Positions 3,914 to 33,969 of a stretch of DNA of 64,000 nt are shown here, piece by piece. Where the stretch lies: contig JALJCQ010000015.1 in the NCBI GenBank assembly GCA_023091665.1, positions 1,984,001 to 2,048,000 on the forward strand, written 5' to 3'. The position numbers and the translations under genes were made by a program. Each line of letters starts with the position of its first letter. The stretch's first letter is position 1. The notes below the pieces were generated by a model. That model worked only from the letters and a program-made list of their open reading frames with translations, was not told where the DNA came from and did not search any database. The stretch comes from Pythium myriotylum (taxonomy: Eukaryota; Oomycota; Peronosporomycetes; Pythiales; Pythiaceae).

Positions 3914-5236
3914 TTAGATCGCCTTGAAAGCCTCTTGGGCTAGATGGGACAATGTCGTTAGCGCATACAATAATCTGCACTGTAAGCCAACAAACTCACC
4001 AATCTCTGAAAGCTCAGGAGTTGCCTTGGCGGAGTAGAACCGCGTAAGGTAGTCGAGAGCGAAGTTGTACACTCGCTCGTTTAAAGCATTGTCTTCGGCG
4101 TCTCCACCTCGTTGATTGTTGCGGTGGGCAGCGATAGCACGCGTACAGGAAACGAGACCTGCGTATGCCCGCGTATTGCGGTCCTTGTTCAACTCAATCG
4201 AACGACAGTAGTGCTTCCGCGCGACGCGAAGGTTGTCGAGACCACCGATGGTGGCATAGATCTGCTCGAAGAAATTCACGCTCAGAGATCTTGGATAATT
4301 CCAGTAAGCATTCGATACTTACATCGGCAAGGCGGCTGTGTAAGAAGGAATCCATCGGGTTGAACATCACCATCTCTTCGAAGCAAAATGCTCCATACTT
4401 GTAGGCCCCGATGGACAAGTATGTCTCCGCGAGTTCCATCCACTGCACGCACCATTCAGCGGGTCAGGGCGGACTTGACTGTGTTGATATGTATCAAGAC
4501 TTACCGCAGCCTGATCCACCGTGAAGTTTCGCAAGAATTCATTCAGAGCAGCAATGAGCTCTTGCGTCTTGTTTAGAGCCTTCAACACCGCGATCCGTCG
4601 CTTCATGGCCAGTGCATTCGCCGAGTTGGCAGCCAAGATATCAGTGTATACTTGCTCAGCTTTTGCGTACTCGCCCTTTTGTTCCTTTTCCCCACAACCA
4701 TTTCAGACAATCCGCGTAAACGATAGACTCGCGTTGAGACCCACCAACTGCATGCCTTCAAGGCGGCCAACTCGCCAGCTTTTCGGAAACTTTCCTTGCA
4801 ACGCCTACGCAGATCTTAGATTCCATTCCATCGTCAAGCTCCGCATCCGTAGTCATGTTACCGTAAGGCATTTCTACGTGCGATCCAGTGGCGAGGTCAG
4901 CATGGTCAGATCCATTCCATCCTCTCAAAAACCTGCAACGCACCTCTGCCACACCATCCTCGTGCTCGTCCAGCGCGGCAATGAACACTTGTTCGTAGAT
5001 GGTCCAGACTAGAAAGCACCGTGTGAGCCCAGCGCCTCTCGATCCGCTCGCGTCTGCGTACTGTCGCTGCCGAGACGCCACTTGAAATTGTCGATCAGCT
5101 CTCGTCCGTAGCGCAGCACGACGCGCGACACGCGGAGCTTCTCCTTGCGGATGATGGCGAGCAGCTCCACGTAGCTTGTGAAGCTGCCGCTCTTCTCCGC
5201 CAGCGCCAGCTTCTCCTCATACTCGACGATCCCCAT
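3914..5236 (-). CDS. EMC2: ER membrane protein complex subunit 2 (TPR protein)
   Basis: Seven exons, in transcript order 5062-5236, 4944-5008, 4745-4804, 4505-4684, 4323-4442, 4000-4261 and 3914-3939, giving 295 residues; human EMC2 has 297. EMC2 is the cytosolic TPR scaffold of the EMC insertase, which inserts tail-anchored and multipass proteins into the ER membrane. Family landmarks appear in order once spliced: IWTIYEQVFIAALDEHED, KSWRVGRLEGMQL, YAKAEQVYTDILAANSANA, RRIAVLKAL, AALNEFLRNF, WMELAETYLSIGAYKYGAFC, FEEMVMFNPMDSFLHSRLAD, IGGLDNLRVARKHYCRSIEL. Introns are 53-62 nt apart from one of 139 nt. The junction between exons 2 and 3 is the least certain, since a few residues expected by comparison with human are missing. 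The last exon is only 26 nt; the intron before it is exactly 60 nt, keeps frame and has a perfect GCTAAC branch site. Second of three tandem minus-strand genes. Confidence 0.9.
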
Positions 5237-5361
5237 GGTCTCTCGTCTCTCACTCGGCCGGCCAGGTGGACCTCCCCTTGCACAAAACCCTTCATTTATG
5301 ATGATTCAAGAGTCTCAGAAAACGGTGCAACGCGACCTAGAAGAAGGTCGGAATTGAACGT

Positions 5362-7621
5362 CTATTTCATAAAAGGGTTGGTCGCCGTTACGAGCTGTTC
5401 ATGAGGCAACGAGATCCGCTCGGGGTAGAACGTGTGACTTGACGGGTACTCGAGCAAGTTCTCGAGGCGAGCCGAGTAAATATCGACGTATCGTTGCACG
5501 AAGAATGCGAACTGCGAAGGATAGTTGTCTGCTCGGAAGACAGAGCCGAAGTTTGCGTTGATCATCTGCTCCATCCTGTTCTGGAGCTGCTCATGGATTT
5601 CAACGAACTGCCACACGAACTCGGGGCTCTGCACGCGCGCTGCATTGTCGCCACGGGATCTTAGGTCATTTTGAACCTTTCGCATCAGTTCCTCAAGTGC
5701 GCTGATCTGCAAAACCGAGCATTATACAGCAAGATCATTAGTCGTTGACGTCAAGGTGTCATCCCAGAAAGGCTCACTTGAAACGCAAGGAACTGATACT
5801 CTGGCGTACGCTGAACTCTGATCTCATCCTCGAGTTCGCTACGTGCAATCGATCTGATGATTAGGCAGACAAAGATACCGCGCAGTATCGACTTCATACC
5901 GGATGATTGCTCCGGTGCGCCACCCATTAATTCTTGATGGCTCCACGAGGTCTGAGAAAAGACTGTCTCTAAATGAAACCAACGTGTTAACACCGCAAAT
6001 CATCCCCATCATCTCGATCACGACTCACCCGATGTACAAGACGCGATTGCCGCCCCACCCAGTTAGCCGGGTGAGATGATGGAGACTCCCTTGAGTGTAG
6101 ACTTGATTCTTCTTCAGCTCTCGGACTGCTTGCCACTGTGGTGTCGACCATTGAGTGTTAAAAAAATCGCTGCTTCCATGTTCATCCAGAACTCCCCACA
6201 CCTGGACTTGCTTGCGCTCAGGATCAAAAAGGCGGAAGGAACGGTGCCGGGTGTAGAAATTGGGTTTACGGGCGCTCACGAGCACAACGTCAAACAGCTA
6301 TCGAGTAGACTCTCAATCAACCGGAAAAATTGCAAGACAACCACACAAGCATGGCAACAAACCTGGCGCCAATCCTTTCCAATCATAAATTGGAGTCCTG
6401 CGTCGATGTACTGGAATGAACTGTTCGTACATAAGAACATCTTCTTATCGTTCCGCTGGTAGAAGAAGCGACAATTTGTTAGCTCGGACCTGTGGTACGT
6501 GCGCACGAAGAAAAACGTACACGAATGCGTTCAAGCAGCGGTAACAACGTTTCACTCGGCTCAATGTAGCGCGATAGGTCTTGAGCAACTGCTTTGTGCA
6601 TGTTGCCGCTGACGTGAACTTGGGTGACAGCCGCATGAACGTCCTCGACAATAGCGATAGGCTCGTATTCGATGTCCTCATCAATAAGGAACTGCACCAC
6701 ATCCGCAAACAGACACGCATGCGCCACGCTGAAGAGATCATTCAGTGGCTCCATCTTGTGGTCCCGATAGGCGACGGATATGTGTCGAGAACCCTTGTAC
6801 TCGTCCATGATCTGATCACGTGTGAGACGCTTACGGCCGCGAAAGACGCCAGTGTTGCAAAGTTTTTGGTGAGAGCTGACTTTGCAGAGTAATCCTTTCT
6901 CCTTGTCGATAGTGAGTCCACGAATCGCAAACGTAGCGTCAAACTTTAAAGACTGGAGACCAGCTGGGTAGCGGAATTTGTCAACCTGATTCAACACCAA
7001 GTTTAGGAATCTGGTTCGTGATCAACCGCGGAAGCATTCACGAACCAAATAATCACGAGCCATGGAGTAGATGAGATGCTGCAATTCCTCAGTGTAATGG
7101 CATAGTGTATAGTCGTAATCTGAAATGTCGTGCCTACGATGAGTGCCGCTCACATTACACTTGCTAATACACCAAAATCGACCTACCGAATCCGACGACA
7201 TCAATATTCGAGAGCCTGACAGAACACGACTGGCATTATTTGCATCGGTCACGATTCTCACTCTCGCGGCATCTATCTCACCGCAGATGGTTGTTCGCAA
7301 ACACTTCGTTGGAGTCGGCTCGTGGATTCGGCTTGAACTTGGCCACAGTATCCTAATCACTCAATAAAAGGAATGCTAAGCCATTGATTAAACGAAGAGT
7401 AGCCCTTGGCCACGAATACGCACCTCGTACTCATGGACCATAGCGTGTACGTTCGAGAACGTCGGGGGAATGTTCACCTTGAGCTTTGCCATGTGTGGCA
7501 ACGTGGACAGCGTTCGCGCCTCGACTCTTGCTCCTGCGTGTCTACACATCGCTGCGTCGCCGGCTAAGCGCCAAGCACCGTGCTGACGCCCGAGACGCAG
7601 TGCATGGACCATGGCGGCCAT
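5362..7621 (-). CDS. NT5DC-type HAD 5'-nucleotidase domain protein
   Basis: Ten exons, in transcript order 7424-7621, 7282-7352, 7187-7215, 7046-7119, 6521-6985, 6363-6455, 6029-6297, 5900-5968, 5778-5838 and 5362-5706; 557 residues, close to animal NT5DC2/NT5DC3. It belongs to the HAD superfamily, cytosolic purine 5'-nucleotidase branch. HAD motif I is GFDYDYTLCHY (nucleophile D100, acid/base D102); the D100 codon is split by an intron. Later landmarks are DATFAIRGL, the HAD motif II region MFLCTNS, KDWRQLFDVVLVSARKP, the motif IV region LYIGDSLFSDL, and the C-terminal FGSVFR and YPSSHTFYPERISLPHE blocks of this subfamily. The chosen start (7621) begins an Arg-rich, acid-poor 45-residue leader that could target mitochondria; an ATG at 7684 is also open. 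Substrate is not readable from the sequence. All ten exons join in frame. Confidence 0.9.
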
Positions 7622-19427: not shown

Positions 19428-22023
19428 GGCCGGGCGAAGTTTTGGTACACCGATTTGTTTCTTGTGTGGATCAGCAGCCAAGCAGACAGTAGAAGGAAAG
19501 TGTACTTGTAGAATAGATTTGCGACTGTTGCCTTTCCTCTTTAACCTAAGCAGGTCCACCCTTTGATCGGATGGAAACTTCAATATTGGGCAGTTCCACT
19601 TATTACTTATGACAGGCAAAGCTGGCGGGACGAAAGCACTTCCAGTCAGAAATGAGTTTCGAATATTTTTTCTGAGAGTTTTTGGGGATTAACGAACTTG
19701 GCAGTCAACATACTACTACTAGTATCACTTAGTACTTCAGACGACGAACAATCCAGGGCCAGGAGGAGCCGGTGCAATTCTCATCGAGGCAGACAATTAA
19801 GGCGAGCAGCTACGATCCTACGGAGCGCTGCCGTGAGCCTTGTTGCCAAGCACGCGACCAAAATCTAGGGGAATATCATGGCTTTATAGCCGCTACTCAG
19901 CTCGGCCTTAGCAGTCTCACTGTCATTGGCGAGAACGCCATAATCATCTACCAACCCAGCAAGCGTATGCTGCCCAAGAACGCCACCCTCCGCGCAAGGC
20001 GCCTCGCCGATAAACTCGACATAACACAGTGGACACGCCACAAGATGGCATATTCACTCGCCACCCTCGCGATGGACTCGGAACACAGCAGCCGAGTGCA
20101 GACCGGGATGGTTGCCCCGATCTCCCGGATATGTTACATAACGATATCGCTTTGTGGCTAGGCCTTTTCGGCGACATAGTAGAGTATTAGTATATCGAGC
20201 GCGCAGAAAGACATCTATTAGGAGTCACCAAGATGAACTCAACAGACTCCCACTTACATCAATCATCACTTCCTACGATAAACAGCTGATTCAACCTCGC
20301 CTCAAATACAGTGTATCTTTTCTAGATTTCACACCATTTTGAGCCAGTTCAGACGGATAACTCTTGTGACGAAGGCCGATGCCGCTAGCGATGTTATTTT
20401 TTAAAAAATGATGACGATTCAGGGAGGCTATGTACATCTTCTGCGCAAAATGTTGCGGAAGAGTCAGAGAGATACGTCAAATACGTCAAATAAAGAGTCC
20501 GTGCAGGTTGGTTTAGTATGAGCTGAACGGTGGTTGTGGAATACTTGGTATGCCCTTCGTCAGGTAGAGTTGGTCTTGAACGAGGCACAGAGGTTTTCGT
20601 GGTTTGTTGGGCATAACAGTCGAGTCAGAAGGTCGCGTGCTTGGTATGGCAGCTGATAGTCCACGAGGTGGTGAAACGGTCATACTGACGTCTAAAAGAA
20701 AGAGTCGAGGTTAGCTGCTCACTTTGGTGGGTTATAGGCGGGGAGGGGGGTGAAGATTTTTGGGTCGTCAAAGCTGGGGCCCACCACCATAAAAAGCGCC
20801 AATATGCAGTGAATCAATTGATGTGAGTTCACCACAGGCCACCCGGCAACTACATATCTCCGGTGTCTACAAATATCGCGTTGAGAATTTGTTTTCGACT
20901 TTGGCACATCCTGATCTTCGATCCCTTGTGCGGCTGTCGCCCTGGATGGAGGCTCTTCAGAAGCCATCGCAACGAACCGCATGCGATTCGAGCATTCATT
21001 GAAGGTAACAGTGGTGCCAATTTTTGTCGCGACCAATGATAGCTTGAGTGGTAGCTTGGTGAGTTTGGAAATGACCGTGTGGCTGAAGAGCAAATGGAGA
21101 CAGAACGAAGAGAAAGAATGACGCGTGCGAGTTATTGGAGTATGATGATATGGCAGTCTTGACGGAAGATCAGAAACATGCCGATCAGATTTTCACCCAA
21201 TCATTGCACAAAATTGAGTTTGAAATCTCAGATTTAAGGCGAGAATCGCCTCAAAGTCCAATCCGCAGTCAGGTTTTGAGAACGGATCTGAGGTATTCCT
21301 CGACAGTTGGCTGGAAGTGGGGGCGAATGGATCAGCAATATCGCCCAACCCTTACAACGGCAAAATAGCCATCGCGCGCGTGGGCTGTCGTGAAAGGCTC
21401 TTTGATCGCTGGTAAATGGTTTGGTTGACCCAAATTTTGAGGACCCTCTTGCTCTAGCAACGAGCCAGGCGCATACGTCAAGAGAAAGGAGTCGGTCCAG
21501 ACGATTGATTCCGTAGTTCGCTCATCGATGGTGAAGTTGAAGTGCTCATTTTCTGAGTCACTGATGATGATCCAAAATGAGCACCAATAATTGGCCAACA
21601 GTGACTGAGGACCAACCAATTATACTGGTGTGCATCGTGGCCGTTGATACCTCTCGTACCATTTCCATCTTTCTTTCGGGAGTCGCGGCAGTTTTAAAGC
21701 TGGTTAGTTTCCGACGATGTGCTCACCAGGCAGAGTCCTGTGGTGAGTGCGCAAAGAAATTCTGATCTGACCAAACTATTCAGTCCACCGCATCAAGTGG
21801 TTTAGTGCTGAACAGATAATATGGGCATTTCGTGCTGAGGAAGACCGTGCTTTTTGTGGAGAAGTATCGTGCTCAAAATACATTTCCCGAATTCCCATGC
21901 CACGACCTGATACCTGGCTGGAAGGCACGCGCAGTTGTGGTATTGGACTAACTCCCAGCATCTTCAACGCGGGCGTGAGAACTCTTGTGGCCACACAGCC
22001 TACAGCGTTCACGCTCTAGAAGA
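19428..22023. other. Gene-poor interval with retroelement relic
   Basis: About 2.6 kb. Apart from the RNase H relic at 19749-20135, open frames on both strands (for example 20719-21093 and 21332-21619 on minus) have no recognisable domain and cannot be chained into a gene. Base composition is more AT-rich than in the flanking genes. A G-rich patch lies near 20738-20755. Confidence 0.5.
19749..20135 (+). pseudogene. Decayed RNase H domain of a retroelement
   Basis: Fragments in different frames line up with a type I RNase H domain: NPGPGGAGAILIE near 19749-19787, then (after a TAA at 19798 and frame changes) GEYHGFIAATQLGLSSLTVI, GENAIIIYQ and finally YSLATLAMDS near 20045-20075. These match the family order: the GPGGAG start of strand 1, the EYxGLIAGL helix carrying a catalytic Glu, the GDSxLVIxQ strand (here GEN, with the Asp lost), and the terminal ADxLANLAMD (here with the catalytic Asp region changed). 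Stops and frameshifts show it is dead. Such a domain usually closes a non-LTR or LTR retroelement polyprotein; I found no reverse transcriptase next to it. Confidence 0.65.
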
Positions 22024-25000
22024 ATGACTCATACTGCCACTAGTGAAGAGACGATGACACCTCTAACAACGACCGTTCCGTCGCTTGAAGTGATAAGCAA
22101 TGTGAGCGTTGATGACGAAGATCTGTTTGTGGCGGAAAGTCCAAGCAGCTCCCATAGCATCGGTACACCACCAACACCAGAGAATCGCAAGTTCGACTGG
22201 CCCCGGTACACAAACGAAATGGTTGCTGCCTCTGAACTTCGAAGCTGTGAACTGACACAGCCAGATCTATCTATCAATGTTTGCACTGGATATGACCCAA
22301 CAAGTGCTGGTAAGGTCGAGGTTGAAAGGAATCCTTGCAGCGTGAGTGAGCTGGCGAATTCTCACGAAGGGGAACTCCTGGCGCTGGCCCCGATTGGTGA
22401 GGATCTTCGAGCCGATGCTGAATACTCCACTTATCCATCTTCCTCATCTATGTCAGCGCCAGAGGGTAAACTCATAACAGAGCGTGGTGAGACTCCAACA
22501 AACCACAACTCAAGCCTCCTGGGGGACTTCTCATCTCACTTTCAGCTGGGAGGAGGGCTAGTGAGTTGGCTACATGGTGACTTAGAACGCGTACACGGCA
22601 ACAAAGAACACAGTGCTCAATCCCCCGGTGATGCGGCTGGAGCCGACACAAAAGTTCTCAGTACCCAGCGGGACAGTGGGAATCCTTCGTCTGGTGAACT
22701 GTCGAAGAAACGAGGCAGCTCTTTGTTCGTCAATCTTTATGACAAAATCAAACAGAAACACGAAGAGCTCGAACTCAAACTACAATTGTTCGATGAGCCA
22801 CCTTATGGAACCACTCAAAGCGCAACACATATTCCTGCATCAACCACAACTCGTTGTTTGGGTGCTCAAGAAACCGACGCTGCAACTAATCTTGCTTTCG
22901 CCAGTGAAATAGCAGCATCTTCCCAACCAAGCAAACACGGATTCCGTCGCGACGTTCGCATCCGATCAGCATCATCGAACGGAGTCTCCAATACCACACA
23001 TTCTGAAGCACCAGCCATCCCAAGAACAAGACTGCGCTCTTTATCATTCGTAGCTCGCAGCCCGAACGTACCCACCGCAACAGACAATGTCTTGGCATCG
23101 GCGGCTGCTTCTCTGTGTGATCCCTTCACTGTTGAGGAGTGCCTAGCTGATCCCAAACTCGCTGCTGAGTTTATCAGCTCAACCTTTCCAGGCGATGAGT
23201 GGCTACTCGCGCTATTATATTCCATCGAAGAGTATGAGGCACTTACCACTGACCTCTCTTCGTCAATGGAGCATCGCCCCGACACCCAAACAAGGATGGC
23301 AACGGCAATTCTAGAGCGCTTCTTATCTATCAAGACTCGTCCAGAGTATTCTGTCCTCCAATTGATGGGAAACGATGTCCGTGACATTATTTCCCAGTGT
23401 CACCGCATCGATTCGGTTCGCCCATCCGTCGGCGTTGAACATGACGTGGGTTTGACGAAGTCTCAAGGAAGGATGCTTCCTCTGAACTTGTTTGAGGGCG
23501 TTTACACCTTTGTGTTTGAGATGCTTCGAAACTCATTCTACAGCAAGTTCAGGCTCACAAGTGAGTATAAACAGTTACTCATTCAGCGTATACGGCAACC
23601 GCAACAAGCTGTGAAGGAGAATTCGTTGCAGCATCTCGTACCGACGTTCGACCAAGTGATTGGGAGCGAATGGTCCTGCACGGTGTTTTGGGTATACCTC
23701 TTTCGTACGTCTCATCACCACCCTCTCAGTTTCATCATGGATGTCAGCTTCAAATTGCGTCATCTCCAACTCTCAGCGCGCGAGGCACAGTCAGGAAGCA
23801 TCGAGTCCGAAAATGCGCTACGGAATTTGAAGAGCGAGCTTCTTCTGGTTTGTCGGCGCTATCTCGGTTGTCAAGCTGCAGTATTGGCTTTGCCGTTGAC
23901 CTCATTCATGCTAGTTCGACTGAGAGATGAACTTCTTGCGGACGCGGCAGCATTGCAAGAGTTAGACCACCCTGATGACTTGGTTATCCAGCACATGATC
24001 GAAAAACTCGATAGACTACTGACGCACATTCGTGTTGACTTCAAACGTATGAGCTTCGATAGGTTTGCTAGTTTCCGCACGAGCACGCTGTATCGCGACT
24101 TCGTCATCGATGCAGGATCCACGACCTCGGCACAGCGCGCCAGAGCAGATGAACTTACTCAGCTACTTCGCATCAGCCGGATTCCTTTTCATCAGACTGC
24201 AGTGAGATCTCCCAGCATACCTGATCTACGTGAGCTTTGCTGTGATGCTGATGATTACCTCTTTGACAACGCAATATCGTGCGTCTTCAGCTTCCTCGGA
24301 GGCGTTGTAAAGAAACAGGGCAATGGCTTACACCATCCTGCCAACCACAAGCTCATCTACGTATCACCAAGAGAAGAGTCCAGTACCTTCGATGCCTCGT
24401 TGAAGAAAGTACTGAGTCTCCTAACTCCAAACCAAGACGTGGATACTTGCTCGGCGCCAGAATTGCTCCCCACATGCTTCAATTTTTTAGCGGGCAGTGG
24501 TGATACTATAGTCTATGGCGCAGTGTGGCGCTTCTCAAGACTTGATCAGGAGCCGCTTGGTGGAGAATGCGATACAGATACGGCGCCTGATGAGACTCAG
24601 AATGGTGTCTGTGTCTTGTCTCGATACCCGCTGATTGATGGTCTTCGTGAGTGCATACGCGTTATTGCTTCACAACAGAATATACAATACCACCTAGCAG
24701 CCGTAGAATCAGATCCCTCTGGCGAAGATCCTACCATGCGCCAGATTTTGTCTGCTATGCGCGATGCACTTGAACACCATCGCCGCCGACTACTTTCTTG
24801 TTCAACTTCACCTTCGAGAGCTCCAATGTTGGACACTTCACTCCAAGATCTGTTCGATTGCCTATCCGTCTCACACGCAGTGCAGCTCTTCTCGCTCATC
24901 CTGCAAGAGAAGAGTATCGTTCTCGTTTCTTCCAGTTACTCCGTGCTGCTGTCAGTCGGCGAATCCCTTCGGGCCATCATCTACCCGCTTGCGTGGAGCC

Positions 25001-25518
25001 ACGTGTATGTCCCTGTGCTGCCGGCATCGATGAAAGCCTATCTGGATTGCCCGACACCGTTCATATTCGGTCTACATACGAGCTGCGCCCGCCACTGCGG
25101 ACTCCTTCAGTATGGTGAGGACCTCGCAGTCGTCAACCTCGACCGAGACTCTATCACGGGCGGCGGGGACGTACACTTGCCTCCCGAGCGCGCAGCGAGC
25201 CTCGGCGACACGCTGTGGCGCCTCTGCAAGCCACGACTGTGCGCGCGTGACCAAATCGAGTTCGATCCCGGCGCGCAGTCGACCGCACCGTTCCCATCGG
25301 ACGCGGTGCGCCGGGCCTTCCAGGATGAGCTGCTCAGCATTTTGGGTCACCTGGAGACGTTCGCGTTCCGCTTCGAGTGCGCCGACCGCACAGTCGCAGT
25401 CGTGGACACGAGCAACAAGTCGCGCCAGTGGCCTCCCGACGCCGCTCGCTTCTACTCGGCGGTTCTCCAGACGCAGGCCTTCTCCACGTATCTTGGAGGG
25501 AGACCCCTCCTAAGTTAG
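22024..25518 (+). CDS. RGS-DENN domain protein
   Basis: A single-exon gene of 1164 residues; ATG at 22024. Residues 1-360 are Ser/Thr-rich and low complexity, with one short Lys/Glu-rich helix (KKRGSSLFVNLYDKIKQKHE). An RGS-like domain follows at about 365-520: it starts DPFTVEECLADPKLAAEFI, contains WLLALLYSIEEYEAL and ILERFLSI, and ends LFEGVYTFVFEMLRNSFYSK then FRLTSEYKQLL, which fits the helical order of RGS proteins. A helical linker (about 540-730) precedes a DENN module at about 750-1030, with the core VQLFSLILQEKSIVLVSSSY, LRAIIYPLAWSHVYVPVLP and DCPTPFIFGLH typical of cDENN. RGS domains speed GTP hydrolysis by G-alpha; DENN domains exchange GDP on Rabs. The same protein may therefore link heterotrimeric G-protein and membrane-traffic signals. 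DENN is certain; RGS is very likely. Confidence 0.9.
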   Translation: MTHTATSEETMTPLTTTVPSLEVISNVSVDDEDLFVAESPSSSHSIGTPPTPENRKFDWPRYTNEMVAASELRSCELTQPDLSINVCTGYDPTSAGKVEVERNPCSVSELANSHEGELLALAPIGEDLRADAEYSTYPSSSSMSAPEGKLITERGETPTNHNSSLLGDFSSHFQLGGGLVSWLHGDLERVHGNKEHSAQSPGDAAGADTKVLSTQRDSGNPSSGELSKKRGSSLFVNLYDKIKQKHEELELKLQLFDEPPYGTTQSATHIPASTTTRCLGAQETDAATNLAFASEIAASSQPSKHGFRRDVRIRSASSNGVSNTTHSEAPAIPRTRLRSLSFVARSPNVPTATDNVLASAAASLCDPFTVEECLADPKLAAEFISSTFPGDEWLLALLYSIEEYEALTTDLSSSMEHRPDTQTRMATAILERFLSIKTRPEYSVLQLMGNDVRDIISQCHRIDSVRPSVGVEHDVGLTKSQGRMLPLNLFEGVYTFVFEMLRNSFYSKFRLTSEYKQLLIQRIRQPQQAVKENSLQHLVPTFDQVIGSEWSCTVFWVYLFRTSHHHPLSFIMDVSFKLRHLQLSAREAQSGSIESENALRNLKSELLLVCRRYLGCQAAVLALPLTSFMLVRLRDELLADAAALQELDHPDDLVIQHMIEKLDRLLTHIRVDFKRMSFDRFASFRTSTLYRDFVIDAGSTTSAQRARADELTQLLRISRIPFHQTAVRSPSIPDLRELCCDADDYLFDNAISCVFSFLGGVVKKQGNGLHHPANHKLIYVSPREESSTFDASLKKVLSLLTPNQDVDTCSAPELLPTCFNFLAGSGDTIVYGAVWRFSRLDQEPLGGECDTDTAPDETQNGVCVLSRYPLIDGLRECIRVIASQQNIQYHLAAVESDPSGEDPTMRQILSAMRDALEHHRRRLLSCSTSPSRAPMLDTSLQDLFDCLSVSHAVQLFSLILQEKSIVLVSSSYSVLLSVGESLRAIIYPLAWSHVYVPVLPASMKAYLDCPTPFIFGLHTSCARHCGLLQYGEDLAVVNLDRDSITGGGDVHLPPERAASLGDTLWRLCKPRLCARDQIEFDPGAQSTAPFPSDAVRRAFQDELLSILGHLETFAFRFECADRTVAVVDTSNKSRQWPPDAARFYSAVLQTQAFSTYLGGRPLLS

Positions 25519-25848: not shown

Positions 25849-28800
25849 ATGGAGTCTATTGGACGCTCCTACAGCCGCCATTTCTCAGCGTTTCTCGTCG
25901 ACGAGAACCAGCCGCAGATGCCCTCGCAGCCTGTGCATCAGCCACGACCCTCACGCTCATTCGAGGGCCCTCCGGCAGTGCGCCAGCGGCCTGCGATCAA
26001 CGCGAGGACCACCCGCACGCCCTCGGTCGACGACATCCCCGTGCTCGAAGGCGGCTCATCAACCAAGATGGGTTTCTGCTCGGACGACGACGATGATGAC
26101 GACGAAGACGATGATGATGAAGGTGATGACGATGCCGAGGAGGAGGAGGATGACGATGGTGTTGGCGACGATGGCGACGTTCCTGTTCTCCAAACAGCCG
26201 AGGATGCTGGGAAGCCCAAGAAGAGCAAACGCAAACAGGCAGCTGGTACCCTGCGAAAACTGCGCGATGCCGCAACAACGACGCGTCGGTCACCTGAGAA
26301 GCCGACGAATGGTGGATCGCCCGTCGTTCTGGACCGTAAATCGTCACAGTTGACCACCTCTTCGTCCAATCTGTCGATAACTTCGGTGGGAGATGCAGCC
26401 GTTTTTACTCGATCGTCTATGGCGGGTAATCCAACAATGAATCGCGTGATGGTTCGTAGTGGATGGCTAATTCGCCAAGGTCAGCACCTCAAGACATGGA
26501 AACGGCGATATTTCGTGCTCATCAAACGGACCAATTTGCTTACCGGAGAGTACACTGCATCGCTACAATATTACAAGGGAAGCAATTTCGGCAAACTGCG
26601 TGGTGAAATTCATTTGCATGAGGGTGGACCTCTGACCATTCGATTCGTTGATGCCAGCGAGAGCAAAAAGCCTTTTTGCTTTGGCATTTCACGTGGAGAG
26701 TTCTCGCTCTATTGTCAAGGAAAAGATGACGAAGACGTGAGCGCCTGGGTTTGGCATTTGCAGAGTCTAGCTTCTCCCACGGCATTAGATGGAAGTGTGC
26801 TCGGTGGTAGCGGCTCGTTCAACTCATCGGGGGGGCGAAGCACGTTCGCGGGGATTGGGCTGGCATCTCTTGGAAATCGCGGGATTTTCATCACAGCCGA
26901 GCTTCGGCGGTTACTACACAATTCGAAGTCTCCCGAGGCTTCGAAGTGCAAGAGCTTTGTGAAGAACTTCGAATGTCAGAGCTCGAGTTCATTGCGGCAG
27001 TTACGGGATCTGCATGCTTCTGTAACCGAGTCGATAATGCGCATTCACGGGGCTAGAATTATTGCGATGACCGAAGAAAAGGCACAGATCGAACAACAAT
27101 CAGGGTACGCGAATGGAGGTCACCCTTTAAAACTTTCTGATCTTCGTAGGGTTACCTCTCGTCACGTGGAGGATGTCCTCTACTCTCCTGTTCAAGATGC
27201 TGTATCATCGTTTCTACGGCGTGCGTTTGCTGAAGACGATGCAACATTGAATCGAAAGCTTCGATGGCTTCAAGGCAAGGATCAAACATACTACAATATC
27301 CCTCTTCATCAAGCTTCATGGAAGGATTGGAGAAAAGCATCGAAGTTATTGGCTCAGGCTGCTCAAGTCTCGTCACCAACAGCGAAGTACGAAATTCTTG
27401 TGGCGACCATGAAGGAAATCCAACTGACCTATGCGGAGGAACACGATCAGATCCTTGAGACAGAGAACCCTCTTGAAACCGACGACCTGATACCAATCTT
27501 CACCTACGTTCTGGCAAACAGTGGGCTGGATAATCTGCTCGCGATGAAGTTGCTGCTGAGCGAATTGAACGGTGCATGGGCAGTTGGTGGATCACTTGAT
27601 AATGGCGCTGCTCTGAACGTGTTCAAGTATGCAGTGGATTTCATCGGGACGGTAAGCATCCCTGCTGTTCTAGAGGACATTTTCAAAGACCAGATTACTC
27701 TCTCCATCGACGGGGAATGGCGTCAAGTTCTTGAGCTCGAACTCGAACCCACATATCGTTACGGTGCGGTTGTGCGGCAAATTTCTCAACACGGCATGAG
27801 TACAATCGGCTCGAGCGTTTCGCGGGGCCATGTTCTTGTGACTGTTAATGGACAGAACGTTGTATTGTGGCCATACACAAACATAGCAGCATTACTCAAG
27901 GAATCGTCACCACCACATCGCCTCGCATTCATCCCGTCGAATAGTTACTTCAAGATTCTGACTTCGAACAAAGCGCTATGGAACGTCGCCCTTGTTCATG
28001 CCTGCCAGCGAGGAGATATTGCGAGCGTACAGATGCTTCTTGCGAATGGCGCCGACGTCAACTACGTAGCCCATGAATCTGGAGGAAACACACCTCTGCA
28101 CATCGCCGTCAGTGCACTCCACTTTAATGTTGTGTCTTACATACTGCAACACGGTGCGAAGCCTAGAGCTGTGGGCGAGTACGGCAGGACAGCTCTTCAC
28201 ATGGTTGGTTCTCCGTGCACACTACCATCTTCCTCTCCGTCTGCTTCTTCCACTACCGTGAGTGGAGGGAACTCTCTTCGGCACAGCACAATGAGCAAGT
28301 TCCAACCCACTGACAAAGTCGTGATGATCATCAAGAAGCTGCTAAATCATGGAACTCCAATCGAAGCGCCGGACATTTTCGGCTATACCCCCCTCATGCT
28401 GCTGTGCAAGAAAGGTCTCGTGAACGGGGTGGATGTTTTGGTGGAGCATAGCGGTGGAGATCTTGACTTGAATGCTCGGAATTGGCAGCATGGTATGTGC
28501 GCACTTGCTCTCGCTGCACGAAATGGCCATCTAGATGTTGTAGAAGCATTGCTCGACTATGGTGTCCAACCTGACGTCGTTGATCTGCAAGGAAATACAG
28601 CCCTACACTTTGCAGCGGCGATCGCTGCAAAGGATATATGCCGGGCTTTAATTCAGCGCGATTGCGACGTCGACGTGCGCAATAGAAACGGTGTGACACC
28701 GTTGATGATTGCTGCAGCAAGAACCACAGATCTGTCGACCGTGAATATGACCAAGAGCAAACCGCGCAATCAGGTACCTTCGAGTCGTGTGGACGAACTA

Positions 28801-30995
28801 ACAGTTCATGAGACGATCGATTATCTCATTGAAGCCCAAGCAGATCTGTATGCGGTTTGCAATCTATACCGACTTCCGCTCCATTACGCTGCAAAATTTG
28901 GAGGCAAAGAGATATACGAGTTTATTGCGAAGAAGATGAACAGCGCTGATGTACAACGAAGGGATATATCGGGAACAACAGCTGCAGCTATGGCTGAAGG
29001 AACAAAAGACATCAGTGTGAGCAATGATAGCAGTGAAGACCCTTCATTAGGCGATGAGAACGAAACCCGCGAGTCTCAGATCGAGTCCCAGTCGGATTTC
29101 CAGTTGTTGCTCAGTAGTACGTCCCAAAAGCCCGACGAAAAGATTGAACGGAGAGATGACTTGATTGTGGAAGTGACATCTGACGAACGACATATCGTTG
29201 CCGGAACCCTCATCGCGATATGCAACGAACTGTATCAGGCTGAGTGTTACGATGTGGATGACGTCGCGGCCCTTATCAGCACGTGCACTGTATCGTCGTA
29301 CCGCGTTCTGATCGATTACATGCGGGATGCGCTACGAAAAACGGCAAGTTCGCCGGATGAAGCTCTTTATGTACGTCGGATGGTATTACATTCTGTCGAT
29401 CTCATGGTTCAAAGCTTCATGCAAAAAGTTGAGCTCGACACGGAGATTTGCAGCTGCATCTACAACTTCTGCAATGAATTGTTCCCGTTCAAGTTGGATG
29501 ATGACCCAGCTTGTGGACAGTGGTTAGCTTCATCACTGTTACCCATGTTTGCTGAAGCTGTTCGAATGGGTCGCTTGTTTGATTTGCGAGTGGGATCCCC
29601 GTGCGAGGCTGCATATACATCTCTCCAATCATACCTAAAGACGGCCAAGAAGTTGAATCCCGCTTTAAAGTTTCTCGATGACGATTTATTCGCATCAACA
29701 TTTGGAGTAGAAGTTATCACAGAAAGCATGCGCCGGCGTCTGTCCATTGCCGGAGTGTGGAAGGGTGATGCAAACAAGTCTTTCCTCGTCCGTTCTGAAT
29801 CGAGCGAGTCACCATCAGTTGCTCTATCCAGAAAAACTCTCGCTTCCGTACCTCTGGCGCGTAATCGATCGGGTGTCATTGAGCGAGCGAGCCGTGTGTG
29901 GTAAGATCCGTAACGTGTCTGACGAAAATGAATTAAAGGACGAAATCCTAACCCGAATGAATCTAGGCTCCTAGACATTGATGTGAGTGTTCTGGCCGAC
30001 CAGATCACACTCTTCCAGCACTACTTGTTCAGTCAGATTCGAGGTGCGCCTCGCCCAATATGCATCTTGCAATTTTGATGAGCTCACACCCCTGACTTGG
30101 TCAGTATCGGAGATGCTCGAGTCGAAGCGCTCAGCTGAGAAGACTCCAGCATACGATCGTCTACGGCAGTTCCACAATCACATATCTGTATGGGTCGTGA
30201 ATCAGATTTTGGCTCGCGAAGACGTCGACCAACGAGTTCAGATTCTGTCCCATTTTATCAAGGTATGTGGTAAACTGGTGAACGCGCGATGCCTGGGCAG
30301 CACAATCATTCTATTTTATTTGTGATGAGTTCAGGTCGCCGGGGTTTGCCTCCAGCCCTTGCAAAACTTCGACGGTTTCATGGCAATCATGAATGCAACG
30401 AATGACTCTTCAGTATTTCGGCTGAAGAAGACTTGGAACCGACTATCTCCTCAAGTGCGCGAGCTGTGGCACGAGCTCAAAAAGTTCACCGAGAGCGGGG
30501 CTCGGTACGGAGAGTTGTCGAATGCTCCTGCTCTGGTATAAACTGATTTGTATTCTTGTGTTTCCAGGTCACTCCATAGGCTGATGAGAGATGCAGTGCC
30601 TCCGATGATACCCTATTTAGGAGTGGTGATGCAAAATATCATCGCTATCCAAGAGTTTCCCGACCGCGTTGAAGGAGACCTAATTAATTTCAAGAAGGTG
30701 AGGAGGCCTTATATTTCGCTGGAAGCCAACAGATATTCATTTCGAATTGTGTAGATTCGCCTACTAGGTGGTGTAGTCAAACGATTTTCGTCTCTCCAGT
30801 CCTCTCCATATCTATTGCAGATAGACAAGCGCGTTCTGGTACGTGCAACGATTTCTGATTGACAGCAAGAGTGGACGTTTTAATAGTCACGTTGAATTTC
30901 TGCAGGATCAGATATCGTCTCCACTCCTGTTTCCAGACGCTGACGCTTGCTTCAACCGCTCTCTCAAGGTTGAGCCGCGTATTCCCACCTCGTGA
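25849..30995 (+). CDS. PH-VPS9-ankyrin-REM-RasGEF multidomain exchange factor
   Basis: Seven exons: 25849-29900, 29967-30043, 30105-30262, 30335-30504, 30568-30697, 30755-30838 and 30906-30995; 1586 residues. Introns are 61-72 nt and every junction keeps frame. Domains in order: disordered N terminus with a long Asp/Glu run (about 78-105); PH domain (about 199-307; GWLIRQGQHLKTWKRRYFVL); VPS9 Rab5-exchange domain (about 442-600; TDDLIPIFTYVL); PDZ-like segment (about 617-704; HVLVTVNGQNV); ankyrin repeats (about 707-1053; GNTPLHIAVSAL, GNTALHFAAAIA); REM/RasGEF-N domain (about 1107-1210; AGTLIAICNELYQ); and a RasGEF catalytic domain (about 1351-1586) only visible after splicing: LLDIDVSVLADQITLFQHYL, VAGVCLQPLQNFDGFMAIMN, LKKTWNRLS, PPMIPYLG, and a final SLKVEPR. 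It should act on membranes, loading Rab5-type and Ras-type GTPases. Start chosen for its GCCATGG context. Confidence 0.93.
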
Positions 30996-31794: not shown

Positions 31795-33969
31795 ATGGGA
31801 CTACGACGATGGGTGTTCTTGGCGTGGACCACCATGGTGCTGCAGATACGAGTTGTTCGCTCACTTGCGCTGGACCCGACGATTGTGACGGATCTTCGTG
31901 TCGTTCAAGGAAAGACCGATGCTGAGGCGAGAGACGCATGCGCATCGATGTGCCCGTGCCGTGATACCCTCACTAAATACGTGACGACGAATTGGTTCAC
32001 AGTCGGAGCTAACCTTAACACCAACAATGATGGAGAAGCCACCTACCTGTGTATGCGTCAAGACCGTCGATCAGCAGTGGAGCGCGACGGCGGGACACCG
32101 TTCGTACTCCAGTCAATCGTAGTCGTGGAAGACGCGTGTCCAGGCTCGATGACGACGCTATTCGAGCCGAGACCCGGTGTTTTCGTGTGTCTACAATTGA
32201 TTTCAGCGACACATGCGCTTGCGACGGGGACATACGTGAGCGAAGTGGACGTAGTCGTCACTACATCGGACAACTCGACAAGCTGGATCATGGTCCCGAC
32301 AAGTGTACATACAACTTCATCTAGCACCTCCTTCGTGCACATTCGTTATAAGCGCCCTGTTCGCCCGATCATCGACTTGAGGGTGCTGACCGACCTGAAC
32401 CCCACGACAAGTAGTGCAACGGCGTGCAGGACTCACTTCAATGCGTCGTGGGAGCCGGCAGGTGCAGGTTTTATCCAGAATATGAAAGACAACAAGCGGA
32501 GCATCATCTGCGTCGAACGCGCGTACGCACCAATCGAGGGAGACGTGGGAAGTGTCGTGGCCCCCCGCGTACTCACGGAAATCCGCATCACCTCATCGGA
32601 AGATAGCTGTGGGACAGAGTTTCGCACGCTAAGTGATCGTTGGAATCTCTGCCTCAGCTTCGCTGCCGGATCGTCGTCGCGGTTTATTAGTTACTTGTCG
32701 CTCGTCTCGAGTACCTCGCTGTTATCTCCACCCACACTCCCGGGTTATGGTGCTGTTTCTACAGCGGATCTCAATGGTGGTCTCGGCGGCTGGTCGGCGT
32801 ATCTCGTGGCCCAAGAAGCGGAAGCATATTCAAGCTCACAGACGAATGGACCTGCTCCAAAGACAATTTCTCCACAGGTCAATGCGTTGCCACTCCGTGA
32901 GAAGGCACCGCTGCGTGCACGGCAGGTGATCGATACCAGAGACCCAAACGCAAATCCCCAGCTGGCTTTTAAGATCCTGCAGATCGCTGACCTCCACATC
33001 ACCGGGGATCCTGATCGATATTGTCTCAACCCACCGGTCGATCGCTCAGCGTGCGGGATGCAATGCACCGAGAACCTCACGGTCGCGTTTCTGAACGATT
33101 TACTAGACGAGGAGTCCCCTGATCTGGTCGTCTTTAGTGGGGACACAATCACCGTCCGCAAGTGGGAGCTGAAGGATGCTGCGTTGAACGCTGCGCTGTC
33201 GCCACTTGAGCAACGCAACATCCCGTATGCATGGATCATGGGCAACCACGATGATGACTACGTATACAATCGCCATGAGATTATGGACAAGCTTCTCCAG
33301 CGAGACCTTGCCTACGTTGAGAAAGGGCCTTCGGCGATTCAAGGTGTGGGAAACTATGAGCTCAATATCATACCACCGGTGAACAGTTCGTGGGGACTCG
33401 AGAACGAGACGATTTTCCGTATCTACTTGTTGGACTCGAACAAGAAGCGCAACTCAACATTGTTTCCCCACATCGACTCAACATACGACTGGATTCGAGA
33501 AGACCAGATCGAGTTTTATAGGAAATTATCAATTGGACACAAGAACGAGGCCCCAGACAACAACAGTACAGTGCCTGCTGTCATGTTTTTCCATATCCCA
33601 ATCCCCGAGTATGCTTCAGCGGGCTCCATTTTTGCTCGACACGGGGCCAAGAACGAGAAGACCGAAGGTCCAGGCTATAACAGCCACTTGCTAAAGACAC
33701 TCTCCGAACTCGGCGAGGTCAAGGCCACGTTTGTTGGTCACGACCACACCAACGAGTACTGCTACAAGACAGAGGGCGTGCAGCTCTGCTACGGCGGTGG
33801 TACGGGGTTTGGCGCAGCGCTGGGCGACAGCTACGTCGCGCGACGTGCCCGCGTCATCGAGTGGACCGCCAGTGCCGACAAAAAGCGCGAGATCAAAAGT
33901 TGGAAGCGGCATTTTGGCGCGAAATTCAGCACACGTCAGCTTGAAGAAGTATTGTTCAGCGAAGACTAA
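31795..33969 (+). CDS. Secreted calcineurin-like metallophosphoesterase (Dcr2/PAP29-like)
   Basis: Single exon, 724 residues. Residues 1-26 form a signal peptide (hydrophobic WVFLAWTTMVLQIRVVRSLA). The region 27-330 consists of beta-rich units, each beginning like TDLRVV or RPIIDLRVL and each carrying paired Cys, and resembles MABP-like repeats. The catalytic domain starts at about 390 with KILQIADLHITGDPD (metal ligands D and H) and continues with VVFSGDTITV, IMGNHDDDY, MFFHIPIPEYAS and TFVGHDHTNEYCY, which are all five metal-binding motifs of the family, intact. Fungal Dcr2 and plant PAP29-type enzymes are the nearest known relatives by motif order. Several N-glycosylation sequons (NSS, NET, NST) fit a secreted phosphatase or phosphodiesterase. 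It lies 238 bp upstream of a paralogue in tandem. Confidence 0.92.
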   Translation: MGLRRWVFLAWTTMVLQIRVVRSLALDPTIVTDLRVVQGKTDAEARDACASMCPCRDTLTKYVTTNWFTVGANLNTNNDGEATYLCMRQDRRSAVERDGGTPFVLQSIVVVEDACPGSMTTLFEPRPGVFVCLQLISATHALATGTYVSEVDVVVTTSDNSTSWIMVPTSVHTTSSSTSFVHIRYKRPVRPIIDLRVLTDLNPTTSSATACRTHFNASWEPAGAGFIQNMKDNKRSIICVERAYAPIEGDVGSVVAPRVLTEIRITSSEDSCGTEFRTLSDRWNLCLSFAAGSSSRFISYLSLVSSTSLLSPPTLPGYGAVSTADLNGGLGGWSAYLVAQEAEAYSSSQTNGPAPKTISPQVNALPLREKAPLRARQVIDTRDPNANPQLAFKILQIADLHITGDPDRYCLNPPVDRSACGMQCTENLTVAFLNDLLDEESPDLVVFSGDTITVRKWELKDAALNAALSPLEQRNIPYAWIMGNHDDDYVYNRHEIMDKLLQRDLAYVEKGPSAIQGVGNYELNIIPPVNSSWGLENETIFRIYLLDSNKKRNSTLFPHIDSTYDWIREDQIEFYRKLSIGHKNEAPDNNSTVPAVMFFHIPIPEYASAGSIFARHGAKNEKTEGPGYNSHLLKTLSELGEVKATFVGHDHTNEYCYKTEGVQLCYGGGTGFGAALGDSYVARRARVIEWTASADKKREIKSWKRHFGAKFSTRQLEEVLFSED

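Follow-up and report, generated by a model that had tools for sequence, protein, structure and literature searches.

The gene at positions 25849–30995 (forward strand) of the window, a stretch of 64,000 nucleotides from Pythium myriotylum, comprises seven exons with a spliced product of 1586 amino acids. As read from its one spliceable frame, the gene is predicted to encode a single multidomain polypeptide that carries both a VPS9 and a RasGEF domain, a new pairing inside the known class of multi-GEF proteins. This pairing would directly link a Rab5-type module to Ras activation in one polypeptide, and through it the gene may connect endosomal trafficking with Ras signalling. The exons and introns, all in the spliced model, are as follows.

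25849–29900, + strand: exon 1, an open frame from Met1 to residue 1350 containing the PH, helical bundle plus VPS9, PDZ, ankyrin repeat and REM-like parts
29901–29966, + strand: intron 1, 66 nt
29967–30043, + strand: exon 2, where the RasGEF (CDC25) domain begins; also from alignment of relatives
30044–30104, + strand: intron 2, 61 nt
30105–30262, + strand: exon 3, RasGEF; also from alignment of relatives
30263–30334, + strand: intron 3, 72 nt
30335–30504, + strand: exon 4, RasGEF; also from alignment of relatives
30505–30567, + strand: intron 4, 63 nt, donor GTACGG; also from alignment of relatives
30568–30697, + strand: exon 5, RasGEF catalytic hairpin; also from alignment of relatives
30653–30655, + strand: codon of E1515, in exon 5
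30698–30754, + strand: intron 5, 57 nt
30755–30838, + strand: exon 6, RasGEF; also from alignment of relatives
30839–30905, + strand: intron 6, 67 nt
30906–30995, + strand: exon 7, end of RasGEF, closing with SLKVEPRIPTS and a stop; also from a PDB match and alignment of relatives

The start of exon 1 was checked against the relative P0001. A seeming frameshift between exons 2 and 3 vanishes because the 61-nt intron 2 lies between them. GTACGG was taken as the donor of intron 4 because it held the register with all 15 relatives displayed; two donors downstream of it, GTCGAA at a distance of 12 nt and GTATAA farther on, which would leave an intron of 32 nt, were judged by eye and dropped in its favour. 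At the point of intron 6, the models of relatives P0017 and P0021 diverge from the family. All six junctions were in register in nine of the 15 relatives displayed in the alignment, one of the nine being a single open reading frame on a 5.2-kb contig, most simply explained as a spliced transcript. The initial annotation had likewise placed six short exons after a long first exon.

A wrongful joining of two neighbouring genes would be suggested by nothing beyond the long first exon and the short later ones, and is very improbable given the fused models across many genera, the P0006 contig, the shared junctions and a gap of just 66 nt between exons 1 and 2. Retention of intron 1 would give two products from one locus, a 1351-residue protein without RasGEF and, upon full splicing, the fusion. 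Indeed, reading past the intron 1 donor leads immediately to a TAA; the Aphanomyces astaci gene model P0124 stops exactly at this point, and P0027 and P0034 extend fewer than 15 residues beyond it before a stop. However, P0124 is a gene model, P0027 and P0034 resemble unspliced open reading frames and may only mark the intron, and the RasGEF mark was found in 34 of the 44 best relatives, so that a shorter second product is considered unlikely. The spliceable frame, the fused relatives and the shared junctions instead favour one polypeptide with VPS9 and RasGEF, as the initial annotation had proposed.

The domains follow the order PH, helical bundle plus VPS9, PDZ, ankyrin repeats, REM-like fold and RasGEF. 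The positions of those encoded by exon 1, and of the VPS9 aspartate discussed below, are as follows.

26452–26769, + strand: PH domain, residues 202–307 (Pfam PF00169, E 1.2e-8, above the cut-off)
26884–27693, + strand: helical bundle and VPS9, residues ~346–615 (Pfam VPS9 at 494–599)
27481–27483, + strand: codon of D545, which corresponds to the aspartate-finger residue D313 of Rabex-5
27688–27960, + strand: PDZ-fold domain, residues ~614–704
27979–29043, + strand: ankyrin repeats, residues ~711–1065, outer limits approximate (Pfam)
29179–29748, + strand: REM-like helical domain, residues ~1111–1300, starting IVAGTLIAI, end approximate

A Pfam search of the 1586-residue product recovered PH, VPS9, ankyrin (Ank_2, E 3.5e-38; Ank, E 1e-30) and RasGEF (PF00617, 1.5e-40), and missed REM. 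Together, the Pfam marks and fold comparisons agree with the domain list first read from the sequence, including the hard-to-see REM and PDZ parts. SH2, RA, RasGAP and RhoGEF gave no Pfam row in the window protein at a maximum E value of 10, and neither did REM. RasGAP appears to be absent, as no unassigned stretch beyond the low-complexity N-terminus seems long enough for it.

Sequence searches recovered 48 relatives, all the named ones oomycete, and 33 of the 48 carried both VPS9 and RasGEF Pfam marks. The pairing occurs in oomycetes that include Pythium, Phytophthora, Albugo and Saprolegnia, and as judged from these sequences the PH/VPS9/PDZ/ankyrin/REM-like/RasGEF layout has been kept together in many members of the group. 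The layout is already present in databases, where the title of a Plasmopara entry mentions pleckstrin, VPS9 and Ras-like GEF. Among the matches listed, VPS9 and RasGEF occurred in one protein in these relatives and in no others, and the matches listed in open-licence literature likewise held no described protein of this kind, in keeping with the earlier statement that none was known. Literature searches found no work on oomycete Ras exchange factors.

The best PDB match of the RasGEF domain was RasGRF1 (2e-35). The catalytic-hairpin glutamate, E1515, was present in all 35 aligned rows having the RasGEF domain, window included; P0031, which lacks the domain and aligned there by a stray tail, was left out of this count. 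REM gave no Pfam row in six relatives tested (maximum E value 5), and when the REM-like stretch was set against ten RasGEF proteins by profile comparison, a single weak match resulted (E 0.15, probability 0.4%). As read, that match falls at the REM-start motif of P0125. The REM assignment was retained solely on the strength of a relative's predicted fold: in the model of P0022 (mean pLDDT 69.1, built on a gene model without part of the ankyrin region), REM plus CDC25 aligned with RasGRP2, Cdc25 and SOS1. Because of this fold and the invariant hairpin glutamate, the RasGEF half looks competent; the same genome encodes a Ras-type GTPase (L032).

The VPS9 module could be placed by its predicted fold, which matched active VPS9 structures; structural alignments to Rabex-5, Vps9 and AtVPS9a showed 11–15% identity. 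Because the VPS9 part of the P0022 model has low confidence (45–70 in most blocks of residues 171–310), only another model was used to judge this module. A phmmer comparison of the VPS9 stretch with PDB sequences gave one chance row (E 0.91), and the fold comparison settled the assignment. At the D545 position, 44 rows (counting the window) have a residue aligned; 42 of them have aspartate and two, both Albugo copies, glutamate. P549 was kept in 44 of 44 such rows. The YxxT site of Rabex-5 is taken to be Y354/T357, with counterparts at 587 and 590, where the window protein has A587 and N590. Neither Tyr at 587 nor Thr at 590 occurred in any of the 45 aligned rows, 18 rows having Ser and 17 having Asn at the latter position. 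In P0044, a Tyr lies at 588, one residue beyond the canonical place. Apart from this module the genome has 13 VPS9 domains, and 12 of them retain the canonical Tyr, some as judged from weak alignments. This Tyr presumably carries functional weight; the literature was searched for Tyr mutants of Rabex or Varp, with no result on the residue. The same genome encodes a Rab5, a canonical Vps9/Rabex-like gene (L005) and a second paralogue with this domain layout (C16), whose VPS9 has lost both Asp and Pro.

The preferred reading, with a probability of about 0.5, is that of a Ras exchange factor recruited to membrane, in which the VPS9 module would bind, and possibly activate, a Rab5-family GTPase. 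The PH domain and VPS9 module would place the protein on a phosphoinositide-bearing, Rab5-type endosomal membrane, and the REM-RasGEF half would be the working enzyme, loading GTP onto oomycete Ras. The ankyrin and PDZ modules may bind partners, or keep the protein inactive until recruitment. With its aspartate finger kept, the VPS9 module probably still binds a Rab5-family GTPase, and this binding would thereby couple a Rab5-positive membrane to Ras activation in one molecule. Counting against this mechanism are the presence of L005 in the genome, the absence of the VPS9 Tyr and Thr from all 45 rows, and a REM unseen by Pfam, with a weak profile match and a relative's model of modest pLDDT.

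A VPS9 module that is folded, and may bind a Rab or another partner, but has no exchange activity is plausible at somewhat below even odds; the protein would then amount to a Ras exchange factor in which a VPS9-derived part serves for docking or autoinhibition. Such a pseudo-enzyme is suggested by the disappearance of Tyr from its place across the whole aligned family, the loss of Asp and Pro in C16 and the Asp-to-Glu change in the two Albugo copies, but near-invariant Asp (42/44) and Pro (44/44) would be unexpected in a dead site. It is rather doubtful that both modules catalyse, so that GTPases of the Rab5 and Ras types would be activated on the same membrane. The family-wide D545 and P549 argue for such dual exchange, and retention of the aspartate finger despite divergence suggests use, since the D313A mutation eliminates the activity of Rabex (PMC3919270). 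The match to active VPS9 folds, the Ser that stands in for Thr in 18 of 45 rows, the displaced Tyr of P0044 and the precedent of SOS as a dual GEF (PMC6767298) point the same way. Against it, the Tyr missing from all 45 rows persists in 12 of the 13 VPS9 domains found elsewhere in the genome, some by weak alignments, and C16 lacks the aspartate too. Activity on both Rab5-family and Ras GTPases throughout oomycetes by a VPS9 without the usual Tyr, with the second paralogue acting on Ras only, is a tentative proposal. If dual activity is true, endosome identity and Ras activation would be a single event. The window, C16 and Albugo copies form a natural series bearing on the question of which VPS9 residues are needed.

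RIN proteins combine SH2 and Ras-binding (Ras-association) domains with VPS9, GAPVD1 combines RasGAP with VPS9, and ALS2 combines DH-PH with VPS9; the dual exchange factors known to us, SOS, RasGRF and ALS2, combine exchange on Ras or Rab5 with exchange on Rho. The window protein resembles RIN1–3, GAPVD1 and ALS2 in having VPS9 plus a Ras- or Rho-related module, and to our knowledge none of these carries RasGEF. With Rabex-5, Vps9, AtVPS9a and its own genome's L005 it shares the helical bundle and VPS9 fold, the aspartate finger and P549, but unlike them it lacks the Tyr and Thr of the YxxT site. In PMC9507130, VARP and Vrl1 are described as having VPS9 together with an ankyrin repeat domain, and Vrl1 an additional PX-BAR module C-terminal to it. 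The window protein likewise has VPS9 followed by ankyrin repeats, as in VARP/ANKRD27 and yeast Vrl1, whereas it adds PH, PDZ and a C-terminal REM-RasGEF. SOS is described as a dual GEF with DH-PH plus REM-Cdc25 (PMC6767298). SOS1 shares with the window protein the REM-RasGEF half and a chain holding two GEF modules, each directed at a different GTPase family. RasGRF1/2 are similar to SOS1, RasGRF rows having mostly RhoGEF, PH, RasGEF_N and RasGEF marks; the second module of SOS1 and RasGRF1/2 is DH (Rho type), whereas that of the window protein is VPS9 (Rab5 type).

The gene lies in an assembly of 55 contigs and 58.7 Mb, within G000:C15:1984001-2048000, and its product combines VPS9 and RasGEF domains:
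25849-30995, + strand, VPS9-RasGEF gene, seven exons

Splicing across introns of 66, 61, 72, 63, 57 and 67 nt, all GT-AG, gave 4761 nt encoding 1586 amino acids plus a stop codon, reproducing the product length and six short exons proposed in the initial annotation. Fifteen relatives were displayed at the six junctions, and nine (P0001, P0006, P0007, P0008, P0016, P0026, P0037, P0041 and P0043) were in register at all of them. At intron 4, the weakest donor, register was kept in 15 of 15, where the window protein reads GAR followed by SLHRL across a split Arg codon and the relatives read GARPLNKL and similar. The other six left register at at least one junction: P0017 and P0021 at 1, 2 and 6, P0003 at 2, 3 and 6, P0004 and P0005 at 6, and P0044 with an insertion at 2 and sequence lost from 5 onward. 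Several of these departures, at shared positions, resemble introns that were retained or misjoined. A single 1603-aa ORF on the 5170-bp contig of P0006 runs through all six junction points and shares 86% identity over 1393 columns with the Phytophthora boehmeriae protein P0020; a spliced transcript is the likeliest origin of this contig.

The Aphanomyces astaci model P0124 stops at the intron-1 point, and P0027 and P0034 end fewer than 15 residues past it. Retention of intron 1 in the window gene is predicted to give an immediate stop (29901-29906) and a 1351-aa protein without RasGEF. In P0029, P0030, P0035, P0039, P0040 and P0122 the ORFs depart from the family within the REM-like stretch (DFLRV, DILRV or NFLKV), which suggests an additional intron there that is absent from the window gene.

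The best-matching relatives, proteins of Pythium oligandrum (64%) and of Pythium insidiosum (62%), place the gene in an oomycete close to Pythium. A whole-protein search scored 7984 candidates; among the best 120 of 333 matches, 44 were family members (P0001-P0044) and 76 had ankyrin marks but lacked those of VPS9 and RasGEF. By precomputed Pfam, 31 of these 44 bore both marks, ten lacked RasGEF (nine of them from contigs; one of the ten, P0034, lacked VPS9 as well), and three more lacked VPS9 alone. A second query, the VPS9 region, yielded 46 proteins, exclusively family, and added P0121-P0124. Both marks were then present in 33 of 48 relatives. Named sources were Pythium, Globisporangium, Lagenidium, Phytophthora, Nothophytophthora, Peronospora, Hyaloperonospora, Peronosclerospora, Plasmopara, Albugo, Saprolegnia, Achlya, Thraustotheca and Aphanomyces. 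A third search, with the REM-RasGEF region, returned 51 proteins: 31 family members and 20 RasGEF proteins from outside it, largely RasGRF; a VPS9 mark was present in 0 of these 20. Since these searches reached only relatives of similar length sharing exact words, a VPS9-RasGEF protein may still exist outside the family.

The RasGEF region matched 28 PDB sequences at E up to 0.001, led by RasGRF1 (2e-35) and followed by SOS1/2, RasGRP2, Epac2, RalGPS1, RasGRP1, Cdc25, RasGRP4 and RGL2. Residue E1515, which we take to be the counterpart of SOS E942, was kept in all 35 rows possessing the domain, window included; one row with only a stray tail at that column was left out.

In the VPS9 half, D545, aligned with the Rabex-5 aspartate finger D313, was D in 42 of the 44 rows that have a letter there; the two others, P0043 and P0044, have E and represent a second, more divergent copy in Albugo laibachii and A. 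candida; P549 was conserved in 44 of 44. Rabex activity is abolished by D313A (PMC3919270). The next helix begins without the canonical Tyr and Thr (A587 and N590 in the window protein): Tyr occurred at 587 in 0 of 45 rows, P0044 alone having Tyr at 588, and Thr at 590 in 0 of 45 (Ser 18, Asn 17). This Tyr carries functional weight in canonical VPS9 domains. At the 13 other VPS9 places of the genome, four of them weakly aligned readings (L006, with Tyr in a neighbouring frame, L012, L047 and L048), the Tyr position was Tyr in 12 and Phe in one (L048), and the finger position D in 12 and E in one (L046). A profile from four of the genome's other VPS9 domains matched the window protein (E 1.2e-13 in a small search set), the match stopping short of the Tyr/Thr site. 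The module is thus a true VPS9 relative with an altered active-site edge. A VPS9 module that binds without exchange would fit this edge, a tentative reading a little short of even odds. True exchange by VPS9 and RasGEF alike is possible and rather doubtful.

Architecture, conservation and key residues are established, with the folds as predicted. PH and VPS9 may bring the protein to a Rab5-type membrane, where REM-RasGEF would switch on Ras, and the ankyrin and PDZ modules would bind partners. A Ras-family survey of the genome covered 117 places, 30 loci being read by motif. L032 (G000:C28) has the Ras hallmarks PTIEDAY and LDTAGQDDF, and the best 60 of its 369 PDB matches were Ras, R-Ras, M-Ras and Rap proteins; L037 (C29) is Rab5, with RABF2b and Rab5B as top matches; and L005 (C17), which matches AtVPS9a (1.6e-27), is a Vps9/Rabex-like gene of canonical type. 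The genome thus encodes GTPases of both substrate types as well as a separate canonical Rab5 GEF.

RasGEF was found at four places in the genome. That on C12 sits in a 905-aa frame where Pfam finds REM but not VPS9, and on C30 RasGEF is the sole domain of a 929-aa frame. The C16 place is a second gene sharing the window gene's layout:
L052 4626-8700 (G000:C16), end approximate, paralogue carrying PH, a degenerate VPS9, a PDZ-like segment, ankyrin repeats and RasGEF

Its 4626-7262 frame matched the family profile in PH and again across a stretch comprising the helical bundle, VPS9, PDZ and ankyrin (E 1.2e-74); short frames after it matched RasGEF (best 4.3e-11); Pfam on the 4626-7262 frame detected PH and ankyrin, and not VPS9. 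Identity to the window protein was 25% over 874 columns, with Q, T and A at the places of D545, D546 and P549 and a D one place earlier; as aligned, the aspartate finger is missing from this VPS9.

Precedents exist. SOS, like the window protein, joins two GEF types, its second type beside REM-Cdc25 being DH-PH (PMC6767298), and Vrl1 is likewise a VPS9-ankyrin protein with a further module behind (PMC9507130). A dictyostelid GEF survey counts 18 VPS9 proteins, and its available portion contains no mention of RasGEF pairing with VPS9 (PMC8923023). The initial annotation knew of no described protein with both domains, and no account of the pairing, oomycetes included, appeared among the papers listed from an open-licence library; the combination is already in databases under automatic names. 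Given these precedents, the database entries and no account among those papers, VPS9-RasGEF is a new pairing in a known class.

The gene has two neighbours on the same strand:
21985-25518, + strand, about 330 nt before the start codon, DENN-domain protein (PF02141, E 4e-36) with a weak RGS-like match (E 0.042)
31795-33969, + strand, downstream, calcineurin-like phosphoesterase (PF00149, E 2.3e-12)

The DENN domain is another Rab-GEF type.
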